Shown here one piece after another: positions 8,698 through 37,543 of a stretch of DNA of 59,480 nucleotides. The DNA is taken from the NCBI GenBank assembly GCA_947053655.1, contig CAMRTO010000007.1:1-59480 (forward strand). The letters are read 5' to 3'. The notes under the pieces are model-generated. The model was given only the letters and a program-made list of their open reading frames with translations. It ran no database searches and was not told where the DNA came from. Source of the stretch: an uncultured Clostridia bacterium (GTDB taxonomy: Bacteria; Bacillota; Clostridia; Christensenellales; Borkfalkiaceae). Positions within the stretch are counted from its first letter, which is position 1. Each line of letters starts with the position of its first letter. The position numbers and the translations under genes are program-made.

Positions 8698-9147
8698 ATG
8701 ACAGGCAAGACGAAGGAAAACAATAACGAAAATTATCTCAATTACGTTAAAACGCAGGACCCGCCCACACAGCATTTTAAAAACTGTCTTTCGGCTTTCG
8801 GCGTAGGCGGGCTTATTTGCTGTATAGGACAGTTCATAAGGTTCATGCTGGAATACGCGGGGCTGACCGGCGACGAGCTGGCCGGCACTACTTCGGTAAT
8901 TCTCATTTTTATAGGTTGCTTTCTTACGGGGCTCGGCGTGTACGACAGAATAGGCAGACACGCAGGCGCAGGTTCCATAGTGCCGATTACGGGTTTTGCC
9001 AACAGCGTCACTTCGCCTGCAATAGAATTTAAAACGGAGGGGTGGATTTACGGCATGGCGGCGAAAATGTTTACCGTCGCGGGCGCTATTATAGTGTTCG
9101 GGGTATTTTCGGGCGTGCTTGTAGGTTTGGTCTACTTTTTTATATGA
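8698..9147 (+). CDS. spoVAC: Stage V sporulation protein AC
   Basis: This 149-residue membrane protein is part of the SpoVA channel in the spore inner membrane that moves dipicolinic acid (DPA) into the forming spore and out at germination; B. subtilis SpoVAC acts as a mechanosensitive channel. The family sequences LSAFGVGGLICCIGQ and HAGAGSIVPITGFANSV...SPAIEFK are present, with about four to five membrane segments and normal length. GGAGG lies 9 bp before the ATG. Its stop overlaps the ATG of spoVAD (ATGA), as in an intact operon. In B. subtilis the operon is read by sigma-G in the forespore; I could not identify a convincing sigma-G promoter here. Confidence 0.95.
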   Translation: MTGKTKENNNENYLNYVKTQDPPTQHFKNCLSAFGVGGLICCIGQFIRFMLEYAGLTGDELAGTTSVILIFIGCFLTGLGVYDRIGRHAGAGSIVPITGFANSVTSPAIEFKTEGWIYGMAAKMFTVAGAIIVFGVFSGVLVGLVYFFI

Positions 9148-9785
9148 TGAAAAAAGGCAATACTGTTTTTTTTAAAAACTCGCCGCGCATAGTTTCGTTT
9201 GCGGCAATATGCGGGTCCAAGGAAAAGGAAGGGATAATAGGCGAATACGCGGATATTACCCTCGACGACGATATGTACAGCGAAAGCACATTCGAAAAGG
9301 CGGAGTGCAAAATGCTGACCAACGCAATTTCTCTTACGATAGAAAAGGGAAAATTAAAGGAAAAGGATATCGACGTTTTGCTTTCCGGCGACTTGCTCAA
9401 TCAGATAATTTCCGCAAGCTTTGCCGCAAGGGATTATAATTTCCCGTTTCTCGGCGTCTATTCGGCTTGTTCGACCATGAGCGAAAGTATCATGCTTGCG
9501 GCTATGATGGTAAACGCAGGTTACGTAAACAGAGCCGTCGCCGCAACGGGAAGCCACTTCGCCTCCGCGGAAAGACAGTACAGATATCCGCTCGAACTGG
9601 GCTGTACGCGTCCTCCGCAGGCGCAGTGGACGGTCACCGGCGCAGGCGGGTGCCTTATCTCGTCCTCTGGCGACGGAATTAAAATAACAAGCGCAACGAT
9701 GGGCAGAGTATGCGACTACGGTGTGACCGACGTAAATAACATGGGGGCGGCAATGGCGCCCGCCGGTGCTATAATAACACCATAG
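9144..9785 (+). CDS. spoVAD: SpoVAD, N-terminal part, interrupted by the element
   Basis: SpoVAD is the soluble DPA-binding protein of the SpoVA channel complex, with a thiolase-like fold. This piece encodes the first 207 genuine codons: LLSGDLLNQ, FGVYSACST-type motif (YSACSTMSES), ATGSHFASAERQYRYP and KITSATMGRVCDYGVTD all match the family. After the codons for AMAPA (ending 9764) the frame enters foreign DNA and adds only G-A-I-I-T-P before TAG at 9783-9785. The family continues APAAADTIKQHL at this point, which is what resumes at 37160. There is no frameshift or stop before the junction. Start is ATG 9144 (or 9147), overlapping the spoVAC stop. As it stands the protein would lack its C-terminal 125 residues. 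Confidence 0.96.
   Translation: MMKKGNTVFFKNSPRIVSFAAICGSKEKEGIIGEYADITLDDDMYSESTFEKAECKMLTNAISLTIEKGKLKEKDIDVLLSGDLLNQIISASFAARDYNFPFLGVYSACSTMSESIMLAAMMVNAGYVNRAVAATGSHFASAERQYRYPLELGCTRPPQAQWTVTGAGGCLISSSGDGIKITSATMGRVCDYGVTDVNNMGAAMAPAGAIITP
9735..9784 (+). other. attL: left junction of the intervening element
   Basis: The core CCCGCCG lies at 9759-9765 with the inferred crossover dinucleotide CC at 9759-9760. The left arm is spoVAD coding sequence; near the centre GGCG-CC-CGCC (9755-9764) is symmetrical. The right arm is the element end, with AACACCATA at 9776-9784 starting exactly 15 bp after the central CC. The CCC is a codon start, in the same phase as at attR. Confidence 0.88.
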
Positions 9786-9796
9786 CGCACACGGCG

Positions 9797-9862
9797 GCGC
9801 GGAGCGGTTTAACACAAAAATTCAAAAGGAGATAACGTCATTCCGCCCGCCGCGCTTTTTTT
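9797..9862 (+). terminator. Possible terminator after the truncated spoVAD
   Basis: GCGCGG (9797-9802) and GCGG (9804-9807) can pair with CCGC (9843-9846) and CCGCGC (9850-9855) around a small internal loop. Seven T follow at 9856-9862. The loop is long (about 35 nt), so this is moderate evidence. The segment to 10042 otherwise holds only a promoter. Confidence 0.5.
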
Positions 9863-9957
9863 ATTAAAAAAGCGGCATACTGTTATTGCGGCGGGAAAAC
9901 GGCGGTAGGCTTATTTCAATTCTTTGGAACATTATTCTATATATTGAAATAATTTTA

Positions 9958-9986
9958 TTGCATTTGCATTTCCGTTGTTGTATAAT
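9958..9986 (+). promoter_or_regulatory. Promoter of the polysaccharide operon
   Basis: TTGCAT at 9958-9963 and TATAAT at 9981-9986 are 17 bp apart. It faces into the element and could drive the run of closely spaced genes from 10043 to 27627. Confidence 0.8.
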
Positions 9987-10042
9987 AAAATGGTAATAAT
10001 GTAAAATTATGCCTGTTGGCTTTATGGGGCTTATTTCTAAAG

Positions 10043-11251
10043 ATGAACATTAAATTTTCACCGCCGGATATTACCGAGCTTGAAATAAAGGAAGTTTCCG
10101 ACGCTTTGCGTTCGGGGTGGATTACCACAGGACCGAAAACCAAGGAACTTGAAAGGCAAGTCGCGGACTTTTGCGGCGTAAACCGCGCCGTATGCCTCAA
10201 TTCCCAGACGGCGTGCGCGGAAATGGCGTTACGCTTGCTGGGTATCGGCGAGGGTGACGAGGTAATAACTTCCGCATACACTTACACCGCGACCGCTTCT
10301 GTAATTTGCCATGTCGGCGCCAAGGTCGTTTTGGTCGATACCATGCCCGACAGCTTGGAGATGGATTATGACAAGATCGAAGGGGCTATAACCGAAAAAA
10401 CCAAAGCCGTTATTCCGGTTGACCTTGCGGGTATCCCCTGCGATTACGATAAAATATTTTCTATAGTCGACAAAAGAAAAAATTTGTTCCGTGCTTCCAA
10501 CGATATACAAAAAGCATTCGGGCGGATTGTGGTGCTGGCCGATACGGCGCATGCGTTCGGCGCGGAGCGTCACGGCAAAAAAGCGGGAAGCATTGCCGAT
10601 TTTTCCGCATTTTCATTCCACGCGGTTAAAAACTTTACCACCGCGGAGGGCGGCGCGCTTACCTGGCGTGATATAAACGGTTTCGACAACAACGATATTT
10701 ACCACAGATTGCAGTTATTGTCGCTTCACGGACAGTCGAAAGACGCGCTTGCAAAAACGTTGCTCGGCGCGTGGGAATATGACATTGCGGGAACTTGGTA
10801 CAAGTGCAACATGACCGACGTCGCCGCGGCAATGGGGCTTGCGCAAATGAAGCGTTATCCCGAAATGTTAAAGCGCAGGAAAGAGCTTATAACTGCCTAT
10901 GACAAAGCGTTTAAACCGCTCGGTATAGAAGTTTTGAATCATTACCGTGAAGATTATTCTTCCTCGGGACATCTGTATATAACGCGCGTGCCAGGAATCA
11001 CTTCGGAACAGCGCAACGAAATTATTATAAAAATGGCGGAACGCGGTATCGCCTGCAACGTGCATTATAAGCCTTTGCCTATGCATACGGCTTATAAGCA
11101 GCTCGGCTTCGATATTAAAAATTATCCCAACGCGTACGCATATTTTGCAAACGAAATAACCTTGCCTCTGCACACCTGTCTAACCGACGAAGAAGCCGAG
11201 TACGTTATTCAAAATTATTGCGATATAGTAAAAGGAATACGGAATGTATAA
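10043..11251 (+). CDS. DegT/DnrJ/EryC1-family nucleotide-sugar aminotransferase (PglE-like)
   Basis: This 402-residue PLP enzyme should transfer an amino group to C4 of a 4-keto UDP-sugar. The Schiff-base lysine is Lys196 in SFHAVKNFTTAEGG; the phosphate-binding SQTACAEMAL and the Asp in VVLADTAHAFG are also present. It is the first gene of the operon, and the next gene is a phosphoglycosyl transferase. With the membrane 4,6-dehydratase at 33767 it would form a bacillosamine-type branch (UDP-GlcNAc to a 4-amino-6-deoxy sugar). The ATG at 10043 is preferred over an in-frame TTG at 10016, because the family begins at NIKFSPPDIT. It overlaps the next gene by 8 bp. Confidence 0.9.
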   Translation: MNIKFSPPDITELEIKEVSDALRSGWITTGPKTKELERQVADFCGVNRAVCLNSQTACAEMALRLLGIGEGDEVITSAYTYTATASVICHVGAKVVLVDTMPDSLEMDYDKIEGAITEKTKAVIPVDLAGIPCDYDKIFSIVDKRKNLFRASNDIQKAFGRIVVLADTAHAFGAERHGKKAGSIADFSAFSFHAVKNFTTAEGGALTWRDINGFDNNDIYHRLQLLSLHGQSKDALAKTLLGAWEYDIAGTWYKCNMTDVAAAMGLAQMKRYPEMLKRRKELITAYDKAFKPLGIEVLNHYREDYSSSGHLYITRVPGITSEQRNEIIIKMAERGIACNVHYKPLPMHTAYKQLGFDIKNYPNAYAYFANEITLPLHTCLTDEEAEYVIQNYCDIVKGIRNV

Positions 11252-11894
11252 ACATTTTTTTAAGCCGCTTTTCGACTTTTTATTGGCTTTGACCGCATTG
11301 CCGTTTATATTGTTGCTTTGCATACCCGTAGCTATTGCCATTAAAGCGGACGACCGCGGACCTGTTTTTTATTGCGGCAAAAGAATAGGCAGAAACGGCA
11401 AACCTTTTAAAATGGTCAAATTCCGCACTATGAAGGTAAACGCTCCCGACATCCGTTTGAACGACGGTTCGACTTATAATTCGGACGACGACGACAGGGT
11501 TACAAAAGTCGGCAAATTTTTAAGAAAAACTTCCATAGACGAGTTACCTCAAATTTTCAATATTTTGAAATTTCAGATGAGCTTTGTAGGTCCGAGACCC
11601 GATCCCGTGGATTGGCTTGATAAGTATGCCGATAACGAACGCGATTTTTTAAAACTTCGTCCCGGGGTTACGGGTTATAATCAGGCGTATTTCCGTAACA
11701 GTGCGGACGGACAGCAAAAGATAGATAATGATAATTACTATTTCAAGCATATTTCATTGTGGTTCGATATAAAAATTTTCTTCAGAACGTTTATTTGCGT
11801 CGTTAAAAAGGAGAACGTAAACGTTAGTGCCGACAGGGTTGAAAGTGCCGCCAAAGAACAGGAGAACAACGGCAAGGGTAATAACGATGCGTGA
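11244..11894 (+). CDS. Initiating phosphoglycosyl transferase (PglC/WcaJ-like)
   Basis: This 216-residue monotopic membrane enzyme transfers a sugar-1-phosphate from a UDP-sugar to undecaprenyl phosphate, starting each polysaccharide repeat unit. One N-terminal re-entrant hydrophobic helix (about residues 8-32) is followed by KRIGRNGKPFKMVKFRTM, the catalytic Asp-Glu in SIDELPQ and the FVGPRPDP motif. The size matches the short PglC type without extra N-terminal helices. The C-terminal tail after residue 195 is charged and low in complexity. Given its neighbours the donor is probably a bacillosamine-like UDP-sugar (inference). Confidence 0.92.
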   Translation: MYKHFFKPLFDFLLALTALPFILLLCIPVAIAIKADDRGPVFYCGKRIGRNGKPFKMVKFRTMKVNAPDIRLNDGSTYNSDDDDRVTKVGKFLRKTSIDELPQIFNILKFQMSFVGPRPDPVDWLDKYADNERDFLKLRPGVTGYNQAYFRNSADGQQKIDNDNYYFKHISLWFDIKIFFRTFICVVKKENVNVSADRVESAAKEQENNGKGNNDA

Positions 11895-12933
11895 GTTCGG
11901 TTCGGAATTCGATTATGTTGGAGACGACGGCGCTTTACAAAATATTTGGAACGGTTTTTCGGATTTTAAACTTTTACGTTGCGGCAGAGACGCCGTAACG
12001 GGAACGGCAATTGCGATGCTTAAACAACGCGGAATAAAAACCGTATGGGTTCCCGCGCTGTCTTGCATTTCGATGTACGGCGGTTTTATATCCGAAGGCT
12101 TCAAGGTTAATTTTTATCCTATCGACGAACGCTTTAATCCGCTGTTAGATGAGAAAAACGACTATAAAAATTCCGTTGTCTTGTTTATGCTATACTACGG
12201 GGTCACCGATATTAATGCGGTCGGCGGTTTTATAAGTAACCATAAGGAATGCGTTTCCGTAGTCGACATAACGCATGCTGTTTGGAATGAAGACGCTTAC
12301 AGCTTGCCCGCAGACGCATTTATCGGAAGCATAAGGAAAAGCGTAGGCGTAGTCAACGGTGGCATATTTCTTTCAAATAAGTTTTCGATAGAAGCGAAAA
12401 CCGGAGTAAACAAGTTTACTCGACTGAGAGAGGGTGCTTTCGGGTTAAAGAATATTTATAACGATACGCGCGACGAAAATATAAAAAACGAATACAGGAA
12501 AATGTTTTCGGACGCGGAACTGTCGCTTATTAGCGAAACGGGTGTATACTGTGCTGACAATAAAAGCGTTAAGACGCTTTTATCGTTAAATACCGAAGAA
12601 ATAAAGCGGAAGCGGATTTCCAATTTCAATAAATTATCAGGTATGTTACAGAATTTATCTTCCGTGCGTCCTTTATGCGCCAAGTTGCAAAAAAATGCAA
12701 TACCTTTTTCGTTGCCTGTACTTGTGGACAATCAAAGCGAAGTCCAACTGAAATTGGCTAAGCAGGGCGTATATGCTCCGGTTTTATGGCCTATTGACGA
12801 AAAGGCGAAAAAGGTCTGCAAATTTTCGGATAAAGTTTCACAAAGCATGCTGTCTTTACCGATAGACCAAAGATATACGGCGGACGATATGGACTTAATT
12901 TTCGAACGGTTGCAACAGGCGGTTTATGATTAA
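11887..12933 (+). CDS. DegT-like fold-type I aminotransferase homologue
   Basis: This 348-residue protein looks like a divergent DegT/EryC1 aminotransferase. A PLP-lysine context is visible as FIGSIRKSVGVVNGG, and VVDITHAVW supplies an aspartate in the usual place. Its N-terminal half diverges strongly from the other two DegT proteins of this operon. It overlaps the previous gene by 8 bp and the next, an ATP-grasp ligase, by 8 bp, so the pair is tightly coupled and may act on the same molecule. The substrate is unknown. Confidence 0.7.
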   Translation: MREFGSEFDYVGDDGALQNIWNGFSDFKLLRCGRDAVTGTAIAMLKQRGIKTVWVPALSCISMYGGFISEGFKVNFYPIDERFNPLLDEKNDYKNSVVLFMLYYGVTDINAVGGFISNHKECVSVVDITHAVWNEDAYSLPADAFIGSIRKSVGVVNGGIFLSNKFSIEAKTGVNKFTRLREGAFGLKNIYNDTRDENIKNEYRKMFSDAELSLISETGVYCADNKSVKTLLSLNTEEIKRKRISNFNKLSGMLQNLSSVRPLCAKLQKNAIPFSLPVLVDNQSEVQLKLAKQGVYAPVLWPIDEKAKKVCKFSDKVSQSMLSLPIDQRYTADDMDLIFERLQQAVYD

Positions 12934-14116
12934 CAAAAGATTGATGGTTGTCGGGGCAAGCATTTTACAGGTTCCCGCAATTAAAAAAGCAAAAGAAATG
13001 GGCATGACGGTCGGCGTAGCGGATTTTAACCCGGACGCGGTCGGAATAAAATTTGCCGATGAATACTTTAATTGCAGCACGCTCGACAAGGAGGGTGTGA
13101 ACAAAGCAGTAAAAGAATTTGCCGCCGACGGCATTATGACTATGGCTACGGACATGCCCATGCGCACAATAGCCTACGTCTGCAAGGAAAACAAGCTTGC
13201 GGGCATATCGGAGGAATGTGCGTTAAACTGTACCGATAAAATCGAAATGATACGCCGCTTTGAAAGCAATTGCGTGCCTTCGCCGAAATATCGCGAGGTA
13301 ACGGGTTTCGAAGAATTGGCGCAGGCGGTAAAGGAAGTAGGGTTCCCCTGTATTTTGAAGCCTGCGGATAATTCGGGCAGCCGCGGAGTTTTGCTTTGCC
13401 GAAGCGCGGAAGATTGTACCTCTTCGAATTACGAATATGTTACAGGGTCGTCGCGCAGCGGAAAAATATTGGTTGAAGAATATATGCAAGGTCCCGAGGT
13501 TTCGGTCGAAGTCTTTGTCGAAAATAAAGTCGCGCACGTGCTTCAGATAACCGACAAAATAACGACGGGCGCCCCCCATTTTGTGGAATTGGGTCATTCG
13601 CAGCCGACGCTTCTCGGGCAAGACGTCTGTACGAAAATCAAAACCGTCGCGCAGGCGGCGTGCGAAGCTGTCGGATTGTCCGACGGTCCTGCGCATCTTG
13701 AAATGATAATTACCCGGGACGGACCCAAAATGGTCGAAATGGGCGCGCGAATGGGCGGCGACTGTATAACCTCGCATCTTGTGCCGCTTTCTACGGGCAT
13801 AAACATGACGGAGCAGACAATACGCTGTGCGCTCAATCTTCCTTTGGATTTGAATGCAGAATTGCAAAAAGCGAGCGCCGTTGTCTTTTTGACTGCGGAT
13901 TCGGGTAAGATTGCGAAAATTTCGGGAACGGAAAAGGCGTATAAAGTTGCGGGAGTAACCGAAATAGGCTTTTTTAAAAAGGAAGGCGACGCTTGCGGCG
14001 AAATTTTATCGTCTTCCGACAGGATAGGGTTTGTGGTTGCGCAAAGCAACTCTCCCGAAAATGCTGTTGCGGCTTGTAAAAAGGCGGCAAAAAAAATAAA
14101 AATAGAAGTGGTTTAA
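12926..14116 (+). CDS. ATP-grasp ligase
   Basis: This 396-residue ATP-grasp enzyme should join a carboxylate to an amine by way of an acyl phosphate. The N-terminal pre-ATP-grasp Rossmann-like domain starts MVVGASILQVPAIKKAKEMG. The ATP-grasp core has FPCILKPADNSGSRGV, the EEYMQGPEVSVEV loop and the metal-binding EMIITRDGPKMVEMGARMGGD. It resembles carbamoyl-phosphate-synthase-like and PurK/PurT-like ligases found in capsule loci. In this setting it may attach an amino acid to a sugar uronate or amine (inference). It follows the DegT-like gene with an overlap and precedes a glycosyltransferase by 3 bp. Confidence 0.85.
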   Translation: MINKRLMVVGASILQVPAIKKAKEMGMTVGVADFNPDAVGIKFADEYFNCSTLDKEGVNKAVKEFAADGIMTMATDMPMRTIAYVCKENKLAGISEECALNCTDKIEMIRRFESNCVPSPKYREVTGFEELAQAVKEVGFPCILKPADNSGSRGVLLCRSAEDCTSSNYEYVTGSSRSGKILVEEYMQGPEVSVEVFVENKVAHVLQITDKITTGAPHFVELGHSQPTLLGQDVCTKIKTVAQAACEAVGLSDGPAHLEMIITRDGPKMVEMGARMGGDCITSHLVPLSTGINMTEQTIRCALNLPLDLNAELQKASAVVFLTADSGKIAKISGTEKAYKVAGVTEIGFFKKEGDACGEILSSSDRIGFVVAQSNSPENAVAACKKAAKKIKIEVV

Positions 14117-14119
14117 TCG

Positions 14120-15367
14120 ATGAAAAAAGTTTGGCTTGTTTCGCATTACGCAATGCCGCCGCATCTGGAAATCCGCGTTAAGACTTTAAAATATGCGTCG
14201 ATTTTGCAGGAACGCGGTTATGACGTTTTATTGATTACGGCAAGTACCGTTCATAATACGGATATAAATTTGATAGAAACTAAGGAAAGATTCGTCGAGC
14301 GCGAATACGACGGTTTGAAATATGTTCATATCAAATGCTCGGGTTATTTGGGCAGCGGCGTAAAACGTATCGTAAATTTATTGCAGTTTCAGAAGCGTTT
14401 TAAGCGCGTTATGAAAAAATTCGATAAACCCGACGTAATCGTCGCCGACTGTAATTGCGTTAATTATAAAGGTATTCTTTCGTTTGCAAAAAAGTTTAAA
14501 ATTCCGTTCGTTTCCGAAATTAGGGATTTATGGCCTTTATCCATTGTCGAGTATAAAAATTTATCAGATAAAAACCCGATAATAAAGTATCTTTATTCGC
14601 AGGAAAAAAGAATGTACCGTCTGTCTGACGCCGTTATTTTTTCTATGGAAGGCGGTAAAAATTATATCAAAGAAAAAAATTGGGACAACAAAGTCGACCT
14701 TAACAAAATTTTTTATATAAATAACGGACTTGACGTCGCTTTGCAGGAAATGCAGAGAAAAGAATTTACTCTCGACGATTCCGACTTAAACGACGCAAGC
14801 TTTAAAGTTATTTACGCAGGGTCGGTAAGGACTGTCAATTACGTAGATTTGATAGTCAAGGCCGCAGAGCTTTTGAAGGATAAGACGGATATATCGTTTT
14901 TGATTTACGGCGACGGCGATAAACGGGTCGAGCTTGAAGATTACTGTAAGACCAATAATTTGAGCAACGTAAAATTCAAAGGCAAGGTAGATAAAAAGTA
15001 TATTCCTTTTATATGCTCGAAAGCGGGTTTAAATATTATCAGCGTCAAGCAGACAAGAATTTCCGACTACGGAGTAAGCTGGAACAAATTGTTTGATTAT
15101 ATGAACGCCGGCAAGCCTGTTTTATCCACCACAAGCGTAAACTACGATTTAATTGAAAAATACAATTGCGGCATATCTTTGAAGGACCAGCGTCCCGAAA
15201 CCATCGCCCAAGGCGTTTTAACGGTTTACGGCATGGGGCGCGAAGAATATTCGCAAATGTGCGCAAACGCAACCGCCGCGGCAAAAAATTACGATTATTC
15301 CGTTTTAACCGATAAATTGGAAGAAGTTATAAATTACGCTATATCACACAGCAAGGAGCAGAATTAA
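14120..15367 (+). CDS. Glycosyltransferase, family GT4 (WbuB-like)
   Basis: This 415-residue protein has a GT-B fold. The start KVWLVSHYAMPPHLEIRVKTLKYA and the sequence FVSEIRDLWPLSIVE are typical of WbuB-like GT4 enzymes. The donor-binding C-terminal half has VIYAGSVRTVNYVD, ISFLIYGDGD and VSWNKLFDYMNAGKPVLS. It probably adds the second or a later sugar to the lipid-linked repeat unit at the cytoplasmic face. It ends where the next gene begins. Confidence 0.88.
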   Translation: MKKVWLVSHYAMPPHLEIRVKTLKYASILQERGYDVLLITASTVHNTDINLIETKERFVEREYDGLKYVHIKCSGYLGSGVKRIVNLLQFQKRFKRVMKKFDKPDVIVADCNCVNYKGILSFAKKFKIPFVSEIRDLWPLSIVEYKNLSDKNPIIKYLYSQEKRMYRLSDAVIFSMEGGKNYIKEKNWDNKVDLNKIFYINNGLDVALQEMQRKEFTLDDSDLNDASFKVIYAGSVRTVNYVDLIVKAAELLKDKTDISFLIYGDGDKRVELEDYCKTNNLSNVKFKGKVDKKYIPFICSKAGLNIISVKQTRISDYGVSWNKLFDYMNAGKPVLSTTSVNYDLIEKYNCGISLKDQRPETIAQGVLTVYGMGREEYSQMCANATAAAKNYDYSVLTDKLEEVINYAISHSKEQN

Positions 15368-16489
15368 ATGCAATTCATCGATTTGCAAAAACAGTACCTG
15401 GCGCTTAAAGATAAAATCGACAGCCGTATAAAAAAAGTTTTGTCGGACGCCCATTTTATCGGCGGAGAAGAAGTGGGCGAGCTTTCGGCTAAGCTTGCAA
15501 ATTATTGCGGGGCGAAGTATTGCCTGACTTGCGCAAACGGCACGGACGCGCTTACGCTTGCTTTGCGTTGTTTTAACGTGGGGCGCGGCGACGCGGTTTT
15601 TGTGCCGGACTTTACGTTTTTCGCCAGTGCGGAAACTCCTGCTCTGGAGGGCGCGACGTGCGTCTTCGTAGACGTTGAGGAGAGAACCTTCAATCTCGAC
15701 GCGGACAAGCTCGAAGAAGCGATAAAAGAGACAATTTCTGACGGTAAATTGACACCCAAAGCAATTATTGCGGTAGATTTATTCGGATTGCCTGCAAATT
15801 ATATAAAAATCAGGAAGGTTGCGGACAAGTACGGCCTGCCTATTATAGAGGACGGCGCGCAGGGCTTCGGCGGAAGTATCGACGGAAAAAAAGCATGTTC
15901 TTTCGGTGATATTTCCACAACCTCGTTTTTCCCCGCAAAGCCTTTGGGTTGCTACGGCGACGGCGGCGCTATATTTACGGATAATAAAGATTATTACGAT
16001 TTAATGTGTTCGCTTGCGGTTCACGGAAAAGGTGCCTTCAAATACGATAACGTGCGTATAGGTTACAATTCCCGTTTGGATACGGTTCAGGCGGCTGTAT
16101 TGCTTGAAAAACTGGACGCGTTTGAAAAATACGAGTATGCTGCGAGAAACGATATCGCAAAACGCTATACTCAGCTTCTTAGCGGCAAATTTGTAACTCC
16201 GCTTATACCCGAAAAGTTCGGCAGCAGCTGGGCGCAATATACGCTTATTTCGAACAGCGGGGAAGAACGTACGCATATACAGGAAAGCTTGAAAAAGAAA
16301 AATATTCCCACAATGGTATATTATCCGAAACCTATGCACAAGCAAACTGCTTTTTCCGACTTGCCCGACAGAAGCGTAAAATTGTGGGTTTCTTCAAAGC
16401 TGTCCGATACGGTTTTAAGCATACCTATGCATCCTTATTTAACGGCGGAAGAAGTCGAGTATATCGCCAAATCGCTTTTGGAGATTTAA
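15368..16489 (+). CDS. DegT-family aminotransferase, WbpE-like
   Basis: This 373-residue PLP aminotransferase has the Schiff-base lysine in TTSFFPAKPLGCYGDGG, a motif typical of the WbpE/WlbC branch that aminates C3 of UDP-3-keto-GlcNAc uronic acid. The family N-terminus MQFIDLQKQYLALKDKID is present, as is the binding residue in PIIEDGAQGFGG. The next three genes resemble WbpD, WbpA and WbpB, so the four would convert UDP-GlcNAc to UDP-2,3-diacetamido-2,3-dideoxy-glucuronic acid. The assignment rests on both sequence and neighbourhood. Confidence 0.9.
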   Translation: MQFIDLQKQYLALKDKIDSRIKKVLSDAHFIGGEEVGELSAKLANYCGAKYCLTCANGTDALTLALRCFNVGRGDAVFVPDFTFFASAETPALEGATCVFVDVEERTFNLDADKLEEAIKETISDGKLTPKAIIAVDLFGLPANYIKIRKVADKYGLPIIEDGAQGFGGSIDGKKACSFGDISTTSFFPAKPLGCYGDGGAIFTDNKDYYDLMCSLAVHGKGAFKYDNVRIGYNSRLDTVQAAVLLEKLDAFEKYEYAARNDIAKRYTQLLSGKFVTPLIPEKFGSSWAQYTLISNSGEERTHIQESLKKKNIPTMVYYPKPMHKQTAFSDLPDRSVKLWVSSKLSDTVLSIPMHPYLTAEEVEYIAKSLLEI

Positions 16490-16494
16490 TTTAA

Positions 16495-18386: not shown

Positions 18387-18389
18387 TTT

Positions 18390-19466: not shown

Positions 19467-19469
19467 ATA

Positions 19470-20567: not shown

Positions 20568-20576
20568 AGGATCGGA

Positions 20577-25175: not shown

Positions 25176-25179
25176 AGTT

Positions 25180-27709: not shown

Positions 27710-27913
27710 ATGCGTAAAACAGCTTTTTCCCTAAAACAGCGCGGTTGTCCGCGCGGCGGCGCTTCTGTAAGCGCGAAACAAGATTTATATTATTGCGACG
27801 GCATTTGCCGTTTTAATTATAAGAACATAACAATCGAAGCGGTATTTTCGCCCGAAGCGCCCGTTATCGAAGAAAAACTGGTAAAAATTGCCGCCGATTA
27901 CGACGCGCAATAA
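27710..27913 (+). CDS. Small protein upstream of the recombinase; candidate recombination directionality factor
   Basis: This 67-residue reading frame of unknown function lies between the operon terminator and the recombinase promoter. The C-terminal 45 residues (YYCDGICRFNYKNITIEAVF then PVIEEKLVKIAADYDAQ) look like a genuine small folded domain with a helix at the end; the first 20 residues are basic and of lower quality, so the real start may be later. No ribosome site is clear. Small proteins beside large serine recombinases are often the directionality factors that switch integration to excision (SprB of SPbeta is an example from knowledge). That role here is inference from position only. 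Confidence 0.5.
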   Translation: MRKTAFSLKQRGCPRGGASVSAKQDLYYCDGICRFNYKNITIEAVFSPEAPVIEEKLVKIAADYDAQ

Positions 27914-29679: not shown

Positions 29680-29781
29680 CATGCAACAAATCTCGGCTAA
29701 TGCGCATACTTATTTATGTAACGCGCTTTTCGCAAAATTCGACTAAATTTTTTATGTTTCACAAATACAACGGCATAATTG

Positions 29782-29810
29782 TTGACTTTGACTGCGTTAA
29801 GCTGTAAAAT
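29782..29810 (+). promoter_or_regulatory. Promoter of the glm operon
   Basis: TTGACT at 29782-29787 and TAAAAT at 29805-29810 are 17 bp apart. The expected start near 29817 leaves a short leader with the ribosome site GGAGGGG at 29844-29850. Confidence 0.82.
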
Positions 29811-29856
29811 AATAAATGATAAAATAGCGTTTCTTACGCGTACGGAGGGGTTTCTC

Positions 29857-30513: not shown

Positions 30514-30522
30514 AGAGAAAAA

Positions 30523-31902
30523 ATGGGAAAATATTTCGGAACCGACGGTTTCAGAGGTGAAGCCAACATAACGCTGACCGCAGACCATGCTTACAAGGTC
30601 GGAAGATTCCTCGGTTGGTACTTCGGTAAAATAAAGGAAAAAGACGGCTCGCCCGTCAAAGTTGTTATAGGCAAAGACACGAGAAGGTCAAGCTACATGT
30701 TCGAGTTTTCGCTTGTAGCGGGACTTACGGCGTCGGGCGCGGACGCATATATGCTTCACGTCACGACGACGCCCTCCGTCGCATACATTACGAGGGTCGA
30801 CGGATTTGACTGCGGAATTATGATATCCGCAAGCCATAATCCCTATTACGACAACGGCATAAAGCTTATAAACACCAACGGCGAGAAAATGGACGACGCG
30901 ACCACCTCGCTTATAGAGGATTATATCGACGGAAAGTTAAACGTGTTCGGGCAGGATTATCCCTATCTTCCCTACGCCAAGCGCGACAAAATAGGTAAGA
31001 CGGTCGACTATGCGTCGGGCAGAAACCGCTATATCGGATATCTTATTTCTCTGGGTATGTATTCTTTCAGGGGAGTAAAGGTGGGGCTCGACTGTGCAAA
31101 CGGCAGTTCTTGGAATATTGCCAAATCCGTTTTCGAGGCTCTCGGTGCGACAACGTACGTTATCAATGCCGACCCCGACGGACTGAATATCAATAAAGAC
31201 GCGGGTTCTACGCATATCGAAAGCTTGCAGAAGCTTGTCAAAGAAAAAAAGCTTGACGTGGGCTTTGCGTTCGACGGGGACGCGGACAGGTGTCTTTGCG
31301 TGGACGAAAACGGAAAATTAGTCACAGGCGACCAGATTTTGTACGTTTACGCAACATATATGAAGGAACGCGGCAAACTGCTTACAAACACCGTTGTGAC
31401 GACTTTAATGTCCAATTCGGGTCTTTACAAGGCTTTCGACGCGGCGGATATATGCTACAAGGTTACGCCGGTAGGGGACAAGCACGTTTATGAAGAAATG
31501 TCGGCAAACGGCTACCGCCTCGGCGGAGAGCAGTCGGGACATATTATTTTTTCCAAATACGCAACTACGGGCGACGGAATACTTACAAGCCTTAAAGTAA
31601 TGGAAGTAATGATGGCGAAAAATTTGTCGCTTTCCAAGCTTGTATCTCCCGTAAAAATATATCCGCAGGTGCTTTTAAACGTTAAAGTCGCGGATAGGGA
31701 AAAAGCCGAAAACGACAGGGACGTTCTTGCGGCGGTCAAACGCATCGAGGAAAAACTTAACGGCGACGGAAGAATTCTTTACCGTGCGTCGGGTACGGAA
31801 CCTCTTATAAGAATAATGGTCGAGGCGGAAAGCGAAAGGGCGGCCAAGACCTACGCGAAGCAGGTTTCGGAGGTGTTGACGAAAAAGGGCTACGCCGTTT
31901 GA
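30523..31902 (+). CDS. glmM: Phosphoglucosamine mutase
   Basis: This 459-residue alpha-D-phosphohexomutase converts GlcN-6-P to GlcN-1-P. The phosphoserine is Ser104 in MISASHNPYYDNG; the metal loop is FDGDADRCL; the sugar-binding loop is GGEQSGHI; the phosphate loop is RASGTEPLIRIMVE. The N-terminus MGKYFGTDGFRGEAN is typical. An essential cell-wall enzyme on an excisable element is odd; there may be a second copy elsewhere. Confidence 0.95.
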   Translation: MGKYFGTDGFRGEANITLTADHAYKVGRFLGWYFGKIKEKDGSPVKVVIGKDTRRSSYMFEFSLVAGLTASGADAYMLHVTTTPSVAYITRVDGFDCGIMISASHNPYYDNGIKLINTNGEKMDDATTSLIEDYIDGKLNVFGQDYPYLPYAKRDKIGKTVDYASGRNRYIGYLISLGMYSFRGVKVGLDCANGSSWNIAKSVFEALGATTYVINADPDGLNINKDAGSTHIESLQKLVKEKKLDVGFAFDGDADRCLCVDENGKLVTGDQILYVYATYMKERGKLLTNTVVTTLMSNSGLYKAFDAADICYKVTPVGDKHVYEEMSANGYRLGGEQSGHIIFSKYATTGDGILTSLKVMEVMMAKNLSLSKLVSPVKIYPQVLLNVKVADREKAENDRDVLAAVKRIEEKLNGDGRILYRASGTEPLIRIMVEAESERAAKTYAKQVSEVLTKKGYAV

Positions 31903-31917
31903 CGGAGGGCATTTAAA

Positions 31918-33753
31918 ATGTGTGGCATTGTCGGATATTTGGGTAAAAAACAGGCCGTTCCGGTGCTTTTGGACGGGCTTACCAAGCTTGAATACAGGGG
32001 TTACGATTCGGCGGGTCTTGCCGTCGTTAACGCAATCGGCAAAATAGAGATAATCAAAGCGCACGGAAAGCTTACCGAATTAAAGAAAAAAGTAAAATCG
32101 CGCGGTAAAACGCTTAAAGGCCTGTGCGGTATAGGTCATACGCGTTGGGCTACGCACGGCGTTCCCAACGAAAACAACGCTCACCCGCACGCCAACGACG
32201 ACGGTTCGGTCGTTGCGGTGCATAACGGCATAATAGAAAACTATTCCGAGCTGAAAGAAAAGCTTATAAAACGCGGATATACCTTTTATTCCGAAACGGA
32301 TACAGAGGTAGCGACAAAGCTTGTCGACTATTATTACAGAAAGTACGGCGAGCCGCTGCGGGCAATTTCGGAATTTGCTTTCCGCGTAAGGGGGTCATAT
32401 GCGCTTGCCGTGCTTTTCGGCGATTACCCCAACGAAATTTACGCAATAAGAAAGGATTGCCCCATGGTAGTGGGGCTTGCCGGCGGAGAGTGCTTTCTTG
32501 CCTCGGACGTTCCCGCGCTTTTGAAATATACGCGCGACGTGTATTACGTCGACAATTTGCAGATAACAAGACTTAAACAGGGCAAAGCCGAGTTTTTCAA
32601 TCTGGACAGAGAAATGCTCTCTTTGCCGCTGACGCATATAGATTGGGATTTGAAAGCCGCCGAAAAGAACGGGTTCGAGCATTATATGCTCAAAGAAATT
32701 CACGAGCAGCCTGCGGCGGTAAAAAATACTCTTAATTGTTATCTGAAAAACGGTAAAATCGATTTTTCGGAAGTGAAGCTTTCCGACGAAACGGTTAAAA
32801 ACACAGGCTCCGTCATAATTTGCGGCTGCGGCTCGGCGTATCATGCCGGCGTCGTAATGCAGTACGTAATGGAAGATTTGTGCCGTATCCCCGTCCGTGT
32901 GGAGCTGGCGTCCGAATTCAGGTACAGAAATCCCGTCGTAGCCGGTGACGAGCTGTTTATTGCAATAAGCCAGTCGGGCGAAACGGCGGACACAATCGCG
33001 GCGCTTCGCGAGGCGAAAAGACTGGGCGTCAAGACGCTTGCCGTGGTTAACGTTTACGGCTCTACCATAGCGCGCGAATCCGACTTCGTGTTTTATACCA
33101 AAGCCGGTCCCGAAATTTCGGTCGCCACCACAAAGGCATACAGCGCCCAACTTATTGCTGGTTATCTGTTGGCGTTGAAGTACGGCGTTGTCCGCGGAAC
33201 GCTGACGGAGGAAAATTACCGCTCGCTTTTAAACGAGCTTTGCGCGCTTCCCGATAAAATAAGCGAAATTTTGAAAGAGCAGTCCGCTGTTCAGCAGTTT
33301 GCTTCCGAAACCGTTAACAGGGAAAACGTGTTCTTTATAGGCAGGGGCATAGATTATGCCGCCGGCATCGAAGGCAGTTTAAAACTTAAAGAGATAAGCT
33401 ACATTCATTCCGAGGCGTATGCCGCAGGAGAGTTGAAGCACGGTACAATCAGCCTTATCGAAAGCGAAACGCTGGTTATAGGCGTGCTTACTCAGGACAG
33501 ACTTGCCGAAAAGACCGCAGGTAATCTTGAGGAAGTAAAAAGCCGTGACGCAAGCATTGCCGTAATTGCGACCGAGGGGGTAAAAATTCCCGAAGGATGC
33601 GGCAAGGCGGTTGTTATACCGGATACGGACGGGCATTTTACAGCCAGTCTTTCGGTCATACCTTTACAGCTTTACGCCTATTATTTAAGCGTGCTCAGGG
33701 GTAACGACGTGGACAAGCCGCGCAACCTCGCCAAGAGCGTAACTGTCGAATAG
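31918..33753 (+). CDS. glmS: Glutamine-fructose-6-phosphate aminotransferase (isomerizing)
   Basis: This 611-residue enzyme makes GlcN-6-P from fructose-6-phosphate and glutamine, the entry to amino-sugar metabolism. Cys2 of MCGIVGYLG is the glutaminase nucleophile; HTRWATHGVPNENNAHPH is the glutaminase pocket. Two SIS domains follow, with SQSGETADT and the C-terminal KPRNLAKSVTVE that ends in the sugar-closing tail. Only 15 bp separate it from glmM, so there is no room for a glmS ribozyme. Confidence 0.97.
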   Translation: MCGIVGYLGKKQAVPVLLDGLTKLEYRGYDSAGLAVVNAIGKIEIIKAHGKLTELKKKVKSRGKTLKGLCGIGHTRWATHGVPNENNAHPHANDDGSVVAVHNGIIENYSELKEKLIKRGYTFYSETDTEVATKLVDYYYRKYGEPLRAISEFAFRVRGSYALAVLFGDYPNEIYAIRKDCPMVVGLAGGECFLASDVPALLKYTRDVYYVDNLQITRLKQGKAEFFNLDREMLSLPLTHIDWDLKAAEKNGFEHYMLKEIHEQPAAVKNTLNCYLKNGKIDFSEVKLSDETVKNTGSVIICGCGSAYHAGVVMQYVMEDLCRIPVRVELASEFRYRNPVVAGDELFIAISQSGETADTIAALREAKRLGVKTLAVVNVYGSTIARESDFVFYTKAGPEISVATTKAYSAQLIAGYLLALKYGVVRGTLTEENYRSLLNELCALPDKISEILKEQSAVQQFASETVNRENVFFIGRGIDYAAGIEGSLKLKEISYIHSEAYAAGELKHGTISLIESETLVIGVLTQDRLAEKTAGNLEEVKSRDASIAVIATEGVKIPEGCGKAVVIPDTDGHFTASLSVIPLQLYAYYLSVLRGNDVDKPRNLAKSVTVE

Positions 33754-33766
33754 AGAGAGAAAATTT

Positions 33767-35599
33767 ATGAAAAAGCAAAGCAAACAAATTAAAGAGATAC
33801 TTTTACTTGTCGGGCTGGATTTAGCGGCAATCGTCGCGTCCGTTGCCCTGTCTTTGCTTATTGTCAACAGCAGTATAGATTTTAATTCCCAGCTTTGGAT
33901 ATGGCTTTCCGTAAACATCGCGATTGTCTATCTTTTCTTTGCTCTTTTCGGCACGTATAACATAGTGTTTACTTCCGTCGGAATAATAGACACGTTGAAA
34001 ACTCTGTGCGCGTGCTTATGTATATTCTGCGTAAACACAGGTTCAAGTTTCATTTTGAAAGAACCTATCGGTTTCAGGGTCTGTTCTGTATTTTGCATAC
34101 TTTTATTTTCTTTCGCGCTTTTGATACGTTTTTCCAAACGCATGTATACAGCCGTAAAATATTCTATAAGCAGCAGGACGAAAAATAAAATAAGGGCTAT
34201 GATAGTCGGCGCAGGCAATGCGGGGACTATGATTATAAGGGAATTCAAGACCACCGATAAAATAGATTATCTCCCCATATGTCTGATAGACGACGACCCC
34301 AATAAATTGAATAAAAACATTTACGGCGTAAAGGTTGTCGGCGGTACGGCGGATATCCCGAAACTTGCGGAAAAGTACTCCATAGACGAAATTATAATTG
34401 CCATGCCGTCTGTACCCAAAACCGAAATAAAACGCGTTTACGACATCTGCGAGGTTACGAAATGCAAGGTTAAAACCTTGCCCGGCATTTACCAGATAGT
34501 AAACGGCGACGCAAGCGTTACCGCGCTCCGCGAAGTCAGGATAACGGACCTTTTGGGGCGCGACCAGATTAGCGTCAATCTCGATGAAATTATGGGATAT
34601 ATCGAAGACCGCGTAATCCTTGTAACGGGCGGCGGCGGTTCGATAGGCAGCGAGCTTTGCAGGCAGATAGCCACACACAATCCAAGACAGCTTATAATAC
34701 TCGATATCTACGAAAACAACGCATACGAAATAGAGCAGGAGCTGAAACGCCGTCATCCTGAGCTTAATCTTCTTACCTTGATAGCAAGTATCAGGGACGA
34801 GGTCAAAATCAACGACGTATTCAAAAAATACAAGCCGGAAATAGTCTTCAACGCCGCGGCGCACAAGCATGTTCCTTTAATGGAAACAAGCCCTAACGAG
34901 GCGGTCAAAAATAACGTGTTCGGTACGCTTAACGTCGCCAAATGCGCGGATAAATACAAATCGAAGGTATTTGTTCAGATTTCCACCGATAAAGCGGTCA
35001 ACCCCACAAACATTATGGGCGCGACGAAGCGCATCTGTGAAATGATTATCCAGACGATAGGCAGACACAGCAAGCACACCAATTTCGTTGCCGTGCGTTT
35101 CGGAAACGTTCTCGGTTCAAACGGCTCCGTAATTCCGTTGTTTGAAAAGCAGATAGCGGAGGGCGGCCCCGTAACTGTTACCCATAAGGACATAATAAGG
35201 TATTTCATGACGATACCGGAGGCTGTATCTCTCGTCTTGCAGGCAGGCGCATACGCCCGCGGCGGTCAGATATTCGTCCTTGACATGGGCGAGCAGGTAA
35301 GGATATACGATTTGGCTTGTAACCTTATAAAGCTTTCGGGATTGGAGCCCGACGTCGATATAAAAATCGAATTTACGGGATTGCGCCCCGGCGAAAAGCT
35401 TTACGAGGAAAGGCTTATGGACGAGGAGGGCATGCAAAAAACGCCCAACGGTCTTATAAACATTGCAAATCCCATACAGTTGGACGAGGACAAACTTTGG
35501 AAAACGCTTGAAAACCTTCATAATGCGGCGGAAAAAGAAACTTCGCGCATGAAGGAGCTTGTTTCTAAACTGGTAACTACCTACAAACCGCAAATTTAA
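33767..35599 (+). CDS. Membrane nucleotide-sugar 4,6-dehydratase (PglF/WbpM/CapD-like)
   Basis: This 610-residue protein has four N-terminal membrane segments (about residues 10-125), a first Rossmann domain (MIVGAGNAGTMII) and a catalytic SDR domain with TGGGGSIGSELCRQI. The catalytic region is STDKAVNPTNIMGATKR, with Met in place of the usual SDR tyrosine, as in PglF/WbpM. It should convert UDP-GlcNAc to UDP-4-keto-6-deoxy-GlcNAc. The PglE-like aminotransferase and PglC-like transferase for the next steps are at the opposite end of the element, which argues that the element works as one unit. It is 13 bp after glmS. Confidence 0.92.
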   Translation: MKKQSKQIKEILLLVGLDLAAIVASVALSLLIVNSSIDFNSQLWIWLSVNIAIVYLFFALFGTYNIVFTSVGIIDTLKTLCACLCIFCVNTGSSFILKEPIGFRVCSVFCILLFSFALLIRFSKRMYTAVKYSISSRTKNKIRAMIVGAGNAGTMIIREFKTTDKIDYLPICLIDDDPNKLNKNIYGVKVVGGTADIPKLAEKYSIDEIIIAMPSVPKTEIKRVYDICEVTKCKVKTLPGIYQIVNGDASVTALREVRITDLLGRDQISVNLDEIMGYIEDRVILVTGGGGSIGSELCRQIATHNPRQLIILDIYENNAYEIEQELKRRHPELNLLTLIASIRDEVKINDVFKKYKPEIVFNAAAHKHVPLMETSPNEAVKNNVFGTLNVAKCADKYKSKVFVQISTDKAVNPTNIMGATKRICEMIIQTIGRHSKHTNFVAVRFGNVLGSNGSVIPLFEKQIAEGGPVTVTHKDIIRYFMTIPEAVSLVLQAGAYARGGQIFVLDMGEQVRIYDLACNLIKLSGLEPDVDIKIEFTGLRPGEKLYEERLMDEEGMQKTPNGLINIANPIQLDEDKLWKTLENLHNAAEKETSRMKELVSKLVTTYKPQI

Positions 35600-35604: not shown

Positions 35605-35640
35605 AAAAAAACGCGTCTCTATCGGGACGCGTTTTTATTT
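35605..35640. terminator. Bidirectional terminator between the dehydratase and the polymerase genes
   Basis: AAAAAACGCGTC (35605-35616) pairs with GACGCGTTTTT (35626-35636), with T-rich DNA on both exits. It ends the glm transcript from the left, and the minus-strand polymerase gene ends inside it. Confidence 0.85.
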
Positions 35641-37034
35641 TGACCTTTAACAAGTATTGCAATCAATAAGCTGTAAACCATCGTGGGAACTATGTTCAAC
35701 AGGTGGTTGTCCAACAAACTGTTGATCAGAAGGGAAGCGACTATCAACGCTATGAACGACCGTTCCGTTGTCGGGTTTTTAAAGAAGCATATAAACGTTT
35801 GAACCCTGTGCAGCGCGTATCCCAGCAAACCGATTATACCGCATGCGCCCATCATCTCCAGTATGGTGTTGTGCGCCATATCCTTGGGTATGGGAGTATA
35901 AGAAAAATCCGTATCGGGTTTAATCTTGTAAAATCCGCTTCCGAATACGGGGAAGGACTTGAAATCCCTTATAGCCTGACGCCAAAGCTCCATTCTGCCG
36001 CTGCCGTAAAGCTCTCCGTTTACAACAATATTCGAATAAATAGTTTTAAAGAATTCGAAAACCTTGTCCTGAAAAAGCCCCGTAACCACTATTCCGCCGA
36101 TAAGCGAGGCTGCAAATATGCACAGATTTGCAATTTTATCATTGCCTTTTACAAGAAGAATTACCGCGCAGACGGGGTATATTACCGCCGCGCAGACCAT
36201 AGCCTGCCTGCAACATGAAAAAATCAGCGCTACCAGCATTATGACCGAAACAACCGTATAAACAAAGCCTAATTTTTTAACGTAAGCCAAATAGAATGCC
36301 GCGGGTATGCACATTGTCAGTAAAGCGCCGTAGGTTGTATAAACGCCCCAGCCGAATATTATCTGGTTTCTGTCAATCGTTCCGTTTGCGAATATCGCGT
36401 CGTTCGTAGCGTACACAACTACAAGCTCGATTATAAGCAAAATTCCCAGCGCGACGAAGCTGTAACAAATTCTCTCGTAAGAGCATTTATCCGCCGTTAC
36501 GTTGTCCTTAAAAACGGCAAACAGCCCCAAAAAAAGCAGTGCCAGTATAACGGCGTATAAAAGATTGAAAAAAGTGTAATTTTTGTTGCCGGCTCCGTTT
36601 AAAAGCAGTGCGACGGAAAAAACGCACAGTCCGAAAAACACCGGATCAAGCTTAAATTTTTTTCTTACGCAAGTTAATACCAGTCTGTAAATCAAAGACG
36701 CGACAAGCAGCGTCACTATTATAATAATAGGGGCAAGAATTTCGGGACGGAAAAAATAGTCGGATTCGCCTCTGCCCGATGCGGGAGAATTTTTCCAGGA
36801 TATTATTACGTTCATAAAAAGCATGACGGTAACAATAGGCGAAACGTCGTCCAAAAAAAGCAAAATCAAAATTCCCGCTATCCCGAGATAGCAGATTGTA
36901 ACGATATCCAAACTGAAGTAGTAACATAAAATTGCTACCGCCATGGTAACAAAAGGGAAAAATTTGGACAGTAAAGCCTGCCTTACAATTTCCGCCGCTT
37001 TTGAATTTTTCGGTTTTGTAAAAGAAGTATTCAT
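35619..37034 (-). CDS. O-antigen ligase/polymerase-like membrane protein
   Basis: This 471-residue membrane protein has about 11-12 helices and a Wzy_C-like outside loop near residues 340-400 with RMELWRQAIRDFKSFPVFGSGF and DMAHNTILEMMGACGIIG, the signature of the O-antigen ligase/WaaL-Wzy superfamily. It would polymerise or ligate sugar chains outside the membrane. It is the second polymerase-like gene in the element and the only one on the minus strand, with its own promoter. The ATG at 37034 is preferred over an in-frame upstream start inside the promoter. The start lies about 8 nt from the predicted transcript start and lacks a ribosome site, so the mRNA may be nearly leaderless. Confidence 0.85.
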   Translation of the reverse strand: MNTSFTKPKNSKAAEIVRQALLSKFFPFVTMAVAILCYYFSLDIVTICYLGIAGILILLFLDDVSPIVTVMLFMNVIISWKNSPASGRGESDYFFRPEILAPIIIIVTLLVASLIYRLVLTCVRKKFKLDPVFFGLCVFSVALLLNGAGNKNYTFFNLLYAVILALLFLGLFAVFKDNVTADKCSYERICYSFVALGILLIIELVVVYATNDAIFANGTIDRNQIIFGWGVYTTYGALLTMCIPAAFYLAYVKKLGFVYTVVSVIMLVALIFSCCRQAMVCAAVIYPVCAVILLVKGNDKIANLCIFAASLIGGIVVTGLFQDKVFEFFKTIYSNIVVNGELYGSGRMELWRQAIRDFKSFPVFGSGFYKIKPDTDFSYTPIPKDMAHNTILEMMGACGIIGLLGYALHRVQTFICFFKNPTTERSFIALIVASLLINSLLDNHLLNIVPTMVYSLLIAILVKGQNKNASR

Positions 37035-37049
37035 TATATGCCCATAGAA

Positions 37050-37078
37050 AGTATAATTGAAACGCCAATGAAAGTCAA
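37050..37078 (-). promoter_or_regulatory. Promoter of the minus-strand polymerase gene
   Basis: On the minus strand TTGACT (37073-37078) and TATACT (37050-37055) are 17 bp apart. It lies only about 80 bp inside the right end of the element. Confidence 0.82.
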
Positions 37079-37135
37079 GGGCAGTCCGCATTTAGTTATA
37101 AAAATTTTCCTTTATTGCGGTTTTCGCTTTATACA

Positions 37136-37185
37136 TATGGTGTTTTATTGACATTTTCCCCCGCCGCGGCAGACACCATAATGCA
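37136..37185 (+). other. attR: right junction of the intervening element
   Basis: The core CCCGCCG lies at 37160-37166 with the central CC at 37160-37161. The element-side arm TATGGTGTT at 37136-37144 ends exactly 15 bp before the CC, mirroring AACACCATA at the left end. To the right is spoVAD coding sequence starting CCC-GCC-GCG-GCA-GAC. An extra ACACCATA occurs at 37173-37180 in spoVAD itself, so attR also contains an 8-bp inverted repeat. Confidence 0.88.
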
Positions 37186-37543
37186 GCATCTTAAGGATAC
37201 GGGGACCTCGCCCGAGGACTACGACATGATTCTTACGGGAGATTTGGGTGCGCTCGGCAGCAGAATCGTGAAAGACCTCACATGGGAAAAGGGTTACGAC
37301 ATTTCCGAAAAGCACGTCGACTGCGGGGAAATAGTTTACAAAGTAATAGAAAACGAGTTTCAGGGCGGCAGCGGCGCGGGCTGCTCCGCGGTGGTTTTGA
37401 ATTCATACGTTCTGTCTAAAATGCGCGCAGGGCTGTACAAGCGTATTCTCTTTGCCGCAACCGGCGCGCTGCTGTCCACGGTATCGTCGGGGCAGGGCGA
37501 AAGCATACCGTGCATAAGTCACGCGGTGCAACTGGAGTATTGA
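37160..37543 (+). CDS. spoVAD: SpoVAD, C-terminal part
   Basis: This is the missing remainder of SpoVAD, about 127 codons, 125 of them beyond those already in the first part. It reads PAAADTIMQHLKDTGTSPED and goes on with YDMILTGDLGALGSRIVKDL, FQGGSGAGCSAVV, ATGALLST and ESIPCISHAV, following the family to its normal end. The frame runs open upstream to a TTG at 37115, but those residues are unrelated and no ribosome site is present, so this part has no start of its own. Joined at the core it gives about 332 residues against about 338 in B. subtilis. The lack of any frameshift suggests the split is either recent or repaired by excision. Confidence 0.96.
   Translation, partial: PAAADTIMQHLKDTGTSPEDYDMILTGDLGALGSRIVKDLTWEKGYDISEKHVDCGEIVYKVIENEFQGGSGAGCSAVVLNSYVLSKMRAGLYKRILFAATGALLSTVSSGQGESIPCISHAVQLEY

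Follow-up and report, generated by a model that had tools for sequence, protein, structure and literature searches.

The locus described here raises the question of what separates the two parts of spoVAD, a sporulation gene, and whether the separation could be reversed. It lies in a 59,480-nucleotide stretch (the window) of contig CAMRTO010000007.1, from the genome of an uncultured Clostridia bacterium (GCA_947053655.1, 94.25% complete). A profile search of this genome returned exactly two SpoVAD matches, 27,401 bp apart, and no further copy; an earlier note on this DNA had named a second intact spoVAD as a possibility, and none was found. The same note had read the locus as a gene split by a 27.4-kb element in the manner of skin and SPbeta. 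Probably, in my view, this is a mobile element with cargo, brought into a fixed Pro codon of spoVAD by the large serine recombinase (LSR) that it encodes, and the same enzyme with a helper would excise it exactly.

The 5' part of spoVAD holds 205 codons before the junction Pro codon (9759–9761), past which its frame runs seven more codons to a TAG stop (9783–9785). The 3' part begins with the Pro codon at 37160 and consists of 127 codons and a stop. Neither part contains an internal stop, and the two part-matches to PF07451 bear out the claim of two open halves; the 207 and 125 residues counted earlier differ from these figures only in the placement of the shared codons. The joined frame reads MGAAMAPAAADTI, and the reading ..MAPAAADTI, which had been predicted for it, is also found in intact relatives. 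The neighbourhood is as expected for spoVAD, with spoVAC upstream and spoVAEB and yunB downstream. The direct repeat CCCGCCG is indeed present at both junctions (9759–9765 and 37160–37166), but I rejected it as evidence in itself: this 7-mer is weak evidence alone because its frequency in the window is near chance (21 found versus 14.5 expected, a count reached by 7 of 100 shuffles).

Attachment sites, recombinase and candidate helper

The element runs from the CC at 9759–9760 to the CC at 37160–37161 (Table 1), which gives the measured 27,401 bp and agrees with the 27.4 kb first estimated. Its ends were aligned with those of sister elements from many assemblies (31 left and 32 right ends in all), and 26 genomes with both ends provided pairs, drawn from 37 labelled rows of 36 genomes. 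The stretch common to both ends is 2–10 bp long across the 26 pairs, its constant part being the CC of the Pro codon, and in all 26 the joined flanks read through in one open frame, MGAAMAP... Around the CC lie inverted arms, with TATGGT at −24 to −19 and CA at −8 and −7 on both sides; this symmetry is as expected of a serine integrase attP, which the joined ends are predicted to form. By eye, a leader TTAACACAAAAATT..AAGGAGG follows the left arm in the window (9784–9840) and in several sister elements, often with a hairpin after it in place of a gene.

The LSR of the element possesses resolvase, recombinase and zinc ribbon domains. The Ser of its YIRLS motif, which I take to be the catalytic residue, is invariant in eight LSRs. 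By sequence, its nearest solved relative is TnpX of Tn4451 (PDB 2mhc, E 1.8e-25), and SprA/YokA of SPbeta (9dxh) is likewise among the nearest solved structures. NCBIfam matches to XisF (105 bits), CcrB and CcrC fall far below the cut-offs (375 and 900 bits); membership of the Ccr families in particular failed, at 70–101 bits versus cut-offs of 700–900.

In sister elements, a small DUF6870 protein (PF21757) is encoded just upstream of the LSR, and the four that were tested all score above the family cut-off. A profile of my own, built from motif-found members, many of them from the same loci that were later scanned, located it 5' of the LSR in 20 of the 23 spoVAD loci that were eligible and in 49 of 51 other loci. 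It is predicted to be an excision factor (recombination directionality factor), and I treat it as a candidate for this role. Its fold is predicted with a pLDDT of 82.6; no fold match was found below E 1.5, and there was one PDB sequence match (E 1.2). A literature search, with most subscription papers outside it, found no mention of DUF6870. The window carries a diverged 67-codon open reading frame (ORF) at this place.

Recurrence, selection and cargo

Interruption at this Pro codon is not confined to the window: at least six families of the order show it, as do further Clostridia, and a related LSR is often close by. Across 37 genomes of the genus (the window's own and 36 others), spoVAD is intact in 28, split with both halves present in four, represented by the right half only in one, and without a match in four. 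The comparison with close relatives that had been suggested thus yields an uninterrupted gene in most, which disfavours the possibility that spoVAD never existed as one gene. An order-wide search gave a SpoVAD match in 329 of 396 genomes and added eight genomes of the genus, five of them intact, two split and one broken elsewhere. Thirty genomes were chosen for a look, so that family counts are lower bounds; among them, six families (f1, f7, f11, f18, f28 and f32) show this junction with DNA of an element on its far side. G260, G139 and G048 were rejected as junction splits, their breaks lying elsewhere, at contig ends. Two-match cases in genera g40 and g67 of family f3 proved to be one open frame with an in-frame insert, and hence not splits; the insert, of ∼57–87 codons near profile position 174, is present in seven of eight genomes (e.g. 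G202:C7:78781–79953), and in the eighth SpoVAD matched in one piece.

Starting from the LSR, 26 of 80 loci hold a piece of spoVAD, which is a half at the junction in 25 and an intact gene in one (L154); loci labelled as other may hold a junction outside the fetched stretch. The spoVAD-bearing loci include Lachnospiraceae, Oscillospiraceae, Intestinimonas and Faecousia. When 22 of the LSR-locus genomes were searched again, 17 had both halves, two the right half only, one two left halves, and two an intact gene together with one half. On the recombinase tree (without L157 and L215), the spoVAD label is clustered, with 10 changes versus 25 in shuffles. On the genus tree, which comprises the 28 of 45 genomes with a fetched locus holding a left half, split and intact genes are interleaved, at least four changes are forced, and clustering is not above that of shuffles. 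Both halves lie on one contig in the window, G004, G369, G429, G435, G439 and G445. On one contig of another genome (G434:C94, L247), the left and right halves are on opposite strands, resembling an inversion; at L113 (G187), two LSR genes stand in tandem next to attR.

Genome G441 holds both forms of the gene. One contig (C24, L255) carries the left half, attL and polysaccharide-type cargo (by eye), and a second (C8, L154) carries a DUF6870 gene and an LSR truncated after about residue 384, followed at a distance of 72 bp by an intact spoVAD; a 13-bp microhomology marks the join. The intact and split alleles are 100% identical over 685 shared bases and diverge exactly at the junction. Most simply, alleles with and without the element coexisted and an intact gene was regained beside a disabled element; alternatively, this could be a strain mixture or an assembly error. 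In G433, the intact spoVAD and the right half give no blastn alignment.

Both halves appear to have been kept under constraint. Of 22 half-gene comparisons, 21 give a dN/dS of 0.02–0.10 and the remaining one yielded no value; the range holds for split and intact genes alike and also between the split sisters G004 and G009. The set comprises 11 pairs, eight with at least one split gene, and the values are rough, as dS is high. I conclude that purifying selection acts on both halves. The window's genome also has a SigG-like gene, at 358 of 457 bits and thus below the curated cut-off, with intact congeners scoring alike; its best match to the SigK model reaches 296.3 of 298.65 bits, ∼2 below the cut-off.

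Elements at this one codon carry unrelated cargo: polysaccharide synthesis, galactan use, arginine synthesis or a single chemoreceptor. The first type is found in the window and G004, which share largely the same genes in an order circularly permuted relative to the att site, as is expected if a circle once existed and the att site moved; no remnant att arms were found at the permuted junction at up to two mismatches. The G429 element is a short form of 8.3 kb with hexapeptide-transferase-, GlmM-, GlmS- and CapD-like genes (by eye). A galactan-use set occupies the 24.7 kb of the G369 element (GH53, GH42, galactose-1-phosphate uridylyltransferase, galactokinase and a MalK-type ABC protein; Pfam, the rest by eye), and the 6.6-kb element of G445 has the ArgJ, class-III aminotransferase, amino-acid kinase and semialdehyde dehydrogenase families of arginine synthesis. 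The 4.7-kb element of G435 has one chemoreceptor with an MCP signalling domain, and that of G042 opens with a ParA-like gene (by eye, 6267–7064 of L040) after a ribosome-binding-site-like AGGAGG.

In the window, the element's 23 ORFs mostly match polysaccharide families (Pfam, E 1e-3), two of them matching none. At the same threshold, no phage structural, packaging or lysis families were found among the 23, two of which are familyless, and Pfam gave no relaxase or conjugation families. The main cargo cluster holds aminotransferases, a sugar transferase, ATP-grasp, glycosyltransferases, a sugar dehydrogenase, and Wzy-like and RmlA/B/D/C-type genes. The element does not carry the sole glmS, an idea that was rejected because a second copy lies on C4; a GlmS-like paralogue is also carried by some intact congeners (G008, G011, G017 and G061). 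Rfam and tRNA scans of the window placed nothing inside the element, and composition followed in 3-kb steps does not change sharply at either end. Outside it, Rfam identified a ZMP/ZTP riboswitch at 2265–2349 and a large SRP RNA at 58168–58431.

Table 1. Features of the split spoVAD locus, with positions in the window.
Feature	Position	Strand	Evidence
spoVAC-like gene, 5' of the split gene	8698–9147	+	PF03862, E 3.5e-39
spoVAD 5' part, open frame	9144–9785	+	PF07451 profile 3–206 (match 9159–9770)
Predicted crossover dinucleotide CC, attL (Pro codon)	9759–9760	+	symmetry centre of arms; CC common to 26/26 pairs
Left attachment arm, TATAAT 9770–9775, ACCAT 9779–9783	9767–9783	+	end alignment
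Polysaccharide cargo cluster	10016–27627	+	Pfam
67-codon ORF at the DUF6870 place of sisters	27710–27913	+	diverged, no Pfam match, E 0.095
LSR	27983–29653	+	PF00239, PF07508, PF13408
Hexapeptide transferase, phosphoglucomutase (GlmM-like), GlmS-like paralogue, CapD-like polysaccharide dehydratase	29779–35599	+	Pfam
Wzy_C / O-antigen ligase family protein	35619–37091	-	PF04932
Right attachment arm ATGGTGTTTTATTGACA, TTGACA 37148–37153	37137–37153	+	end alignment
Predicted crossover dinucleotide CC, attR	37160–37161	+	symmetry centre of arms; CC common to 26/26 pairs
spoVAD 3' part, from the Pro codon	37160–37543	+	PF07451 profile 201–329 (match 37154–37537)
spoVAEB-like gene	37547–37930	+	PF03862
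yunB-like sporulation gene	37945–38604	+	PF09560

A predicted promoter at the circle junction

In 25 of the 32 right ends, TTGACA stands at one constant position of the right arm (in G006, outside this count, it lies one base further out, giving an 18-bp spacer), and the left arm carries a −10-like hexamer, with at least four of six positions matching, in 30 of the 31 left ends. I scored 50 bp around each predicted site for sigma-A-type promoters, with a spacing of 16–18 bp and a threshold of 10/12. This threshold was reached by 24 of 26 attP sites, no attL, two of 26 attR and no attB (26 sites each), while letter-shuffled attP sites reached it in a mean of 0.26 and a maximum of 3 of 26. The best spacing of the hexamers is 17 bp in 25 of 26. 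A simple scan of the integrated window gave no promoter-like site across attL or attR. The promoter is accordingly predicted from sequence as one that would form only when the ends of the circle meet. Two perfect TTGACA-17-TATAAT sites are present elsewhere in the window, at 325 and 56130, so this promoter form is ordinary for the organism. G448 has swapped arms and a promoter that is retained in the opposite direction (11/12), where it faces a 92-codon minus-strand gene (8983–8708, in L180 8560–9330) that looks antitoxin-like by eye; the DUF6870 match of G448 is doubtful (E 0.021).

By gene position, the predicted circle promoter would not serve the LSR. In the window, the LSR lies 18 kb downstream of the circle junction, behind a terminator-like hairpin (seen by eye, absent from the scan list), and in G004 and G429 it comes last among the genes, counted from the junction. 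The hexamers might instead be only a binding site for the LSR, kept for protein binding without any transcription start, which I regard as rather unlikely. TATGGT and CA are conserved in both arms, so each hexamer is partly shared with the half-site and some of the conservation needs no promoter; in G445, moreover, the genes adjoining attL point the opposite way. Yet conservation is also arm-specific, TTGA being confined to one arm and TAnnnT to the other, and both the 17-bp spacing and the reversed promoter of G448 argue for more than protein binding, as do three elements (G432, G433 and G436) with the ATGGT motif and no TTGACA. Given the overlap with half-site positions and the differing genes behind the junction from one element to the next, promoter function is a prediction.

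Relation to known elements and weighing of the explanations

By the tests made, the element is neither a prophage, nor an integrative and conjugative element (ICE), nor a Ccr cassette. SCC (Ccr) and the fdxN element (XisF) are fixed-site LSR elements, and SCC cargo is interchangeable; the window's element differs in an LSR far below the cut-offs of these families and in its insertion inside a sporulation coding sequence. Its organization resembles that of sporulation gene-intervening elements: a sporulation gene is split, its frame is restored on removal, and a site-specific recombinase is encoded. To my knowledge, the described elements of this kind all lie in genes of the mother cell, which dies, so that excision there leads nowhere. 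Skin and SPbeta, which interrupt such genes, are prophages or prophage-like, whereas the window's element has no phage family (Pfam).

SPbeta in spsM and skin in sigK are recombinase-bearing elements that split a sporulation gene (PMC4191935, PMC5025042). The closest likeness appears to be gin, a non-phage element of 28.6 kb in gerE of Bacillus cereus ATCC 10987, for which excision was shown (PMC5595907). Both lack phage genes, split a sporulation gene in frame and carry a serine recombinase; gin pairs its recombinase with an accessory factor (GirC, GirX), for which DUF6870 of sister elements is a candidate counterpart. However, gerE acts in the mother cell and gin has three recombinases, whereas the spoVAD elements have a forespore-expressed target, many Clostridia as hosts, variable metabolic cargo and an excision that is predicted. 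The circle of Tn4451/Tn4453, with TnpX, forms a promoter, according to a title cited in PMC13023037; there it serves the recombinase, while that predicted for the spoVAD elements faces other left-end genes, and the spoVAD elements, unlike Tn4451/Tn4453, share one site. In ICEclc and ICEKp1, a promoter at one end drives int in the excised state (PMC13023037), so that promoter use is similarly tied to the circular state, but the hexamers of the spoVAD elements come from opposite ends. spoVA genes have been reported as cargo (PMC6907783), and the spoVAD passages found, most subscription papers being outside the search, report no element inside spoVAD. Intervening elements in a forespore gene, forming a family across many Clostridia with variable cargo, would seem to be new.

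A skin- or SPbeta-like reading, as first proposed, is supported by the encoded LSR and the symmetric att arms, and further by the same insertion point elsewhere, the intact relatives and the purifying selection. The split could instead be a plain loss of function, with an element in a gene dispensable for growth and lineages that no longer make normal spores. The diverged DUF6870 of the window and the four genomes of the genus without a SpoVAD match (though incomplete or fragmented) would fit this; in C. sporogenes, colony formation following heat shock was affected when a transposon had inserted into spoVAD (PMC4383383), so that a lasting split should hurt spores. I nevertheless find it unlikely, as both halves are in frame with low dN/dS even between split sisters, sporulation sigma-like genes are kept, and spoVAC, spoVAEB and yunB are intact alongside. 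It is less probable still that the halves are expressed separately and function as a protein in two pieces. Through fixed spacing, the TTGACA of the right arm offers an in-frame TTG (TTG-ACA-NNN-NCN-CCN) that could start the 3' half, and the ORF finder begins this half there in G004, G206, G369, G445 and G429; in the window, however, this half has no clear ribosome-binding site (by eye) and no promoter-like site lies across attR, and TTGACA is missing in some elements. As for misassembly, or strain mixture in metagenome bins, these are draft assemblies, many of them metagenome-assembled, and contigs C23 and C18 of G401 end at the junction itself and G195:C109 ∼10 bases before it; such contig ends could reflect mixed occupied and empty sites. 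That so many assemblies, several of them with the two halves on a single contig, show this junction and conserved ends disfavours this explanation, which the earlier note had raised and which I consider very improbable.

Several observations weigh against a mobile element that readily excises. No DUF6870 protein above the cut-off was found in the window's genome, so that the element there may be without a functional excision factor. Between its LSR and attR lie 7.5 kb, whereas the LSR adjoins attR in G004, G009, G369, G429 and G435; with the diverged helper gene, this may mean that the window's copy is slow or stuck. An LSR of this kind was not found in the fetched ends of G206 and G006. The ends are partly non-independent, the left ends of G444 and G449 being identical, and TTGACA and CA overlap in part with positions of the recombinase half-site. 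Recent insertion alone could explain the low dN/dS, dS being near saturation. Finally, two scans of viral contigs for the circle junction (attP pattern) gave 4 and 14 matches; all 14 and one of the four (L071) were examined and rejected as circles, since they are without the ATGGT arm and look like ordinary promoters.

For the mobile element integrated and excised by its own LSR, the following course can be proposed. The LSR would act on these att sites; serine integrases integrate without a helper, and the DUF6870 helper with the LSR would excise the element and restore spoVAD exactly. The excised circle would then fire the sigma-A promoter formed by its joined ends. In C. difficile, spoVAD depends on sigma-G (PMC3738446), and the gene is listed under sigma-G, for dipicolinic acid uptake (PMC3416734). 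Because it is a forespore gene, excision must hit the inherited chromosome and would be heritable. It would presumably occur in the cell line becoming the spore, and the element would either be carried as a circle, re-integrating at outgrowth, or be lost from the spore line. A fuller version, in which Clostridia-wide non-phage islands are expelled from the future spore's chromosome at each sporulation, packaged as a promoter-switching circle and re-inserted at outgrowth, is one that I put forward only tentatively and with some doubt.

An element in a forespore gene must solve a problem of heredity, as it has to leave and yet still be inherited. The mobile unit would be simple, ∼2 kb of DUF6870 and LSR genes with two short ends, and it appears to move whole pathways among Clostridia, many of them, by their record titles, from animal guts. 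Genetic tools could be developed from the recombinases and their paired att sites. If the fuller version is true, spore formation would be a recurrent window for the excision, expression and transfer of metabolic and surface genes.

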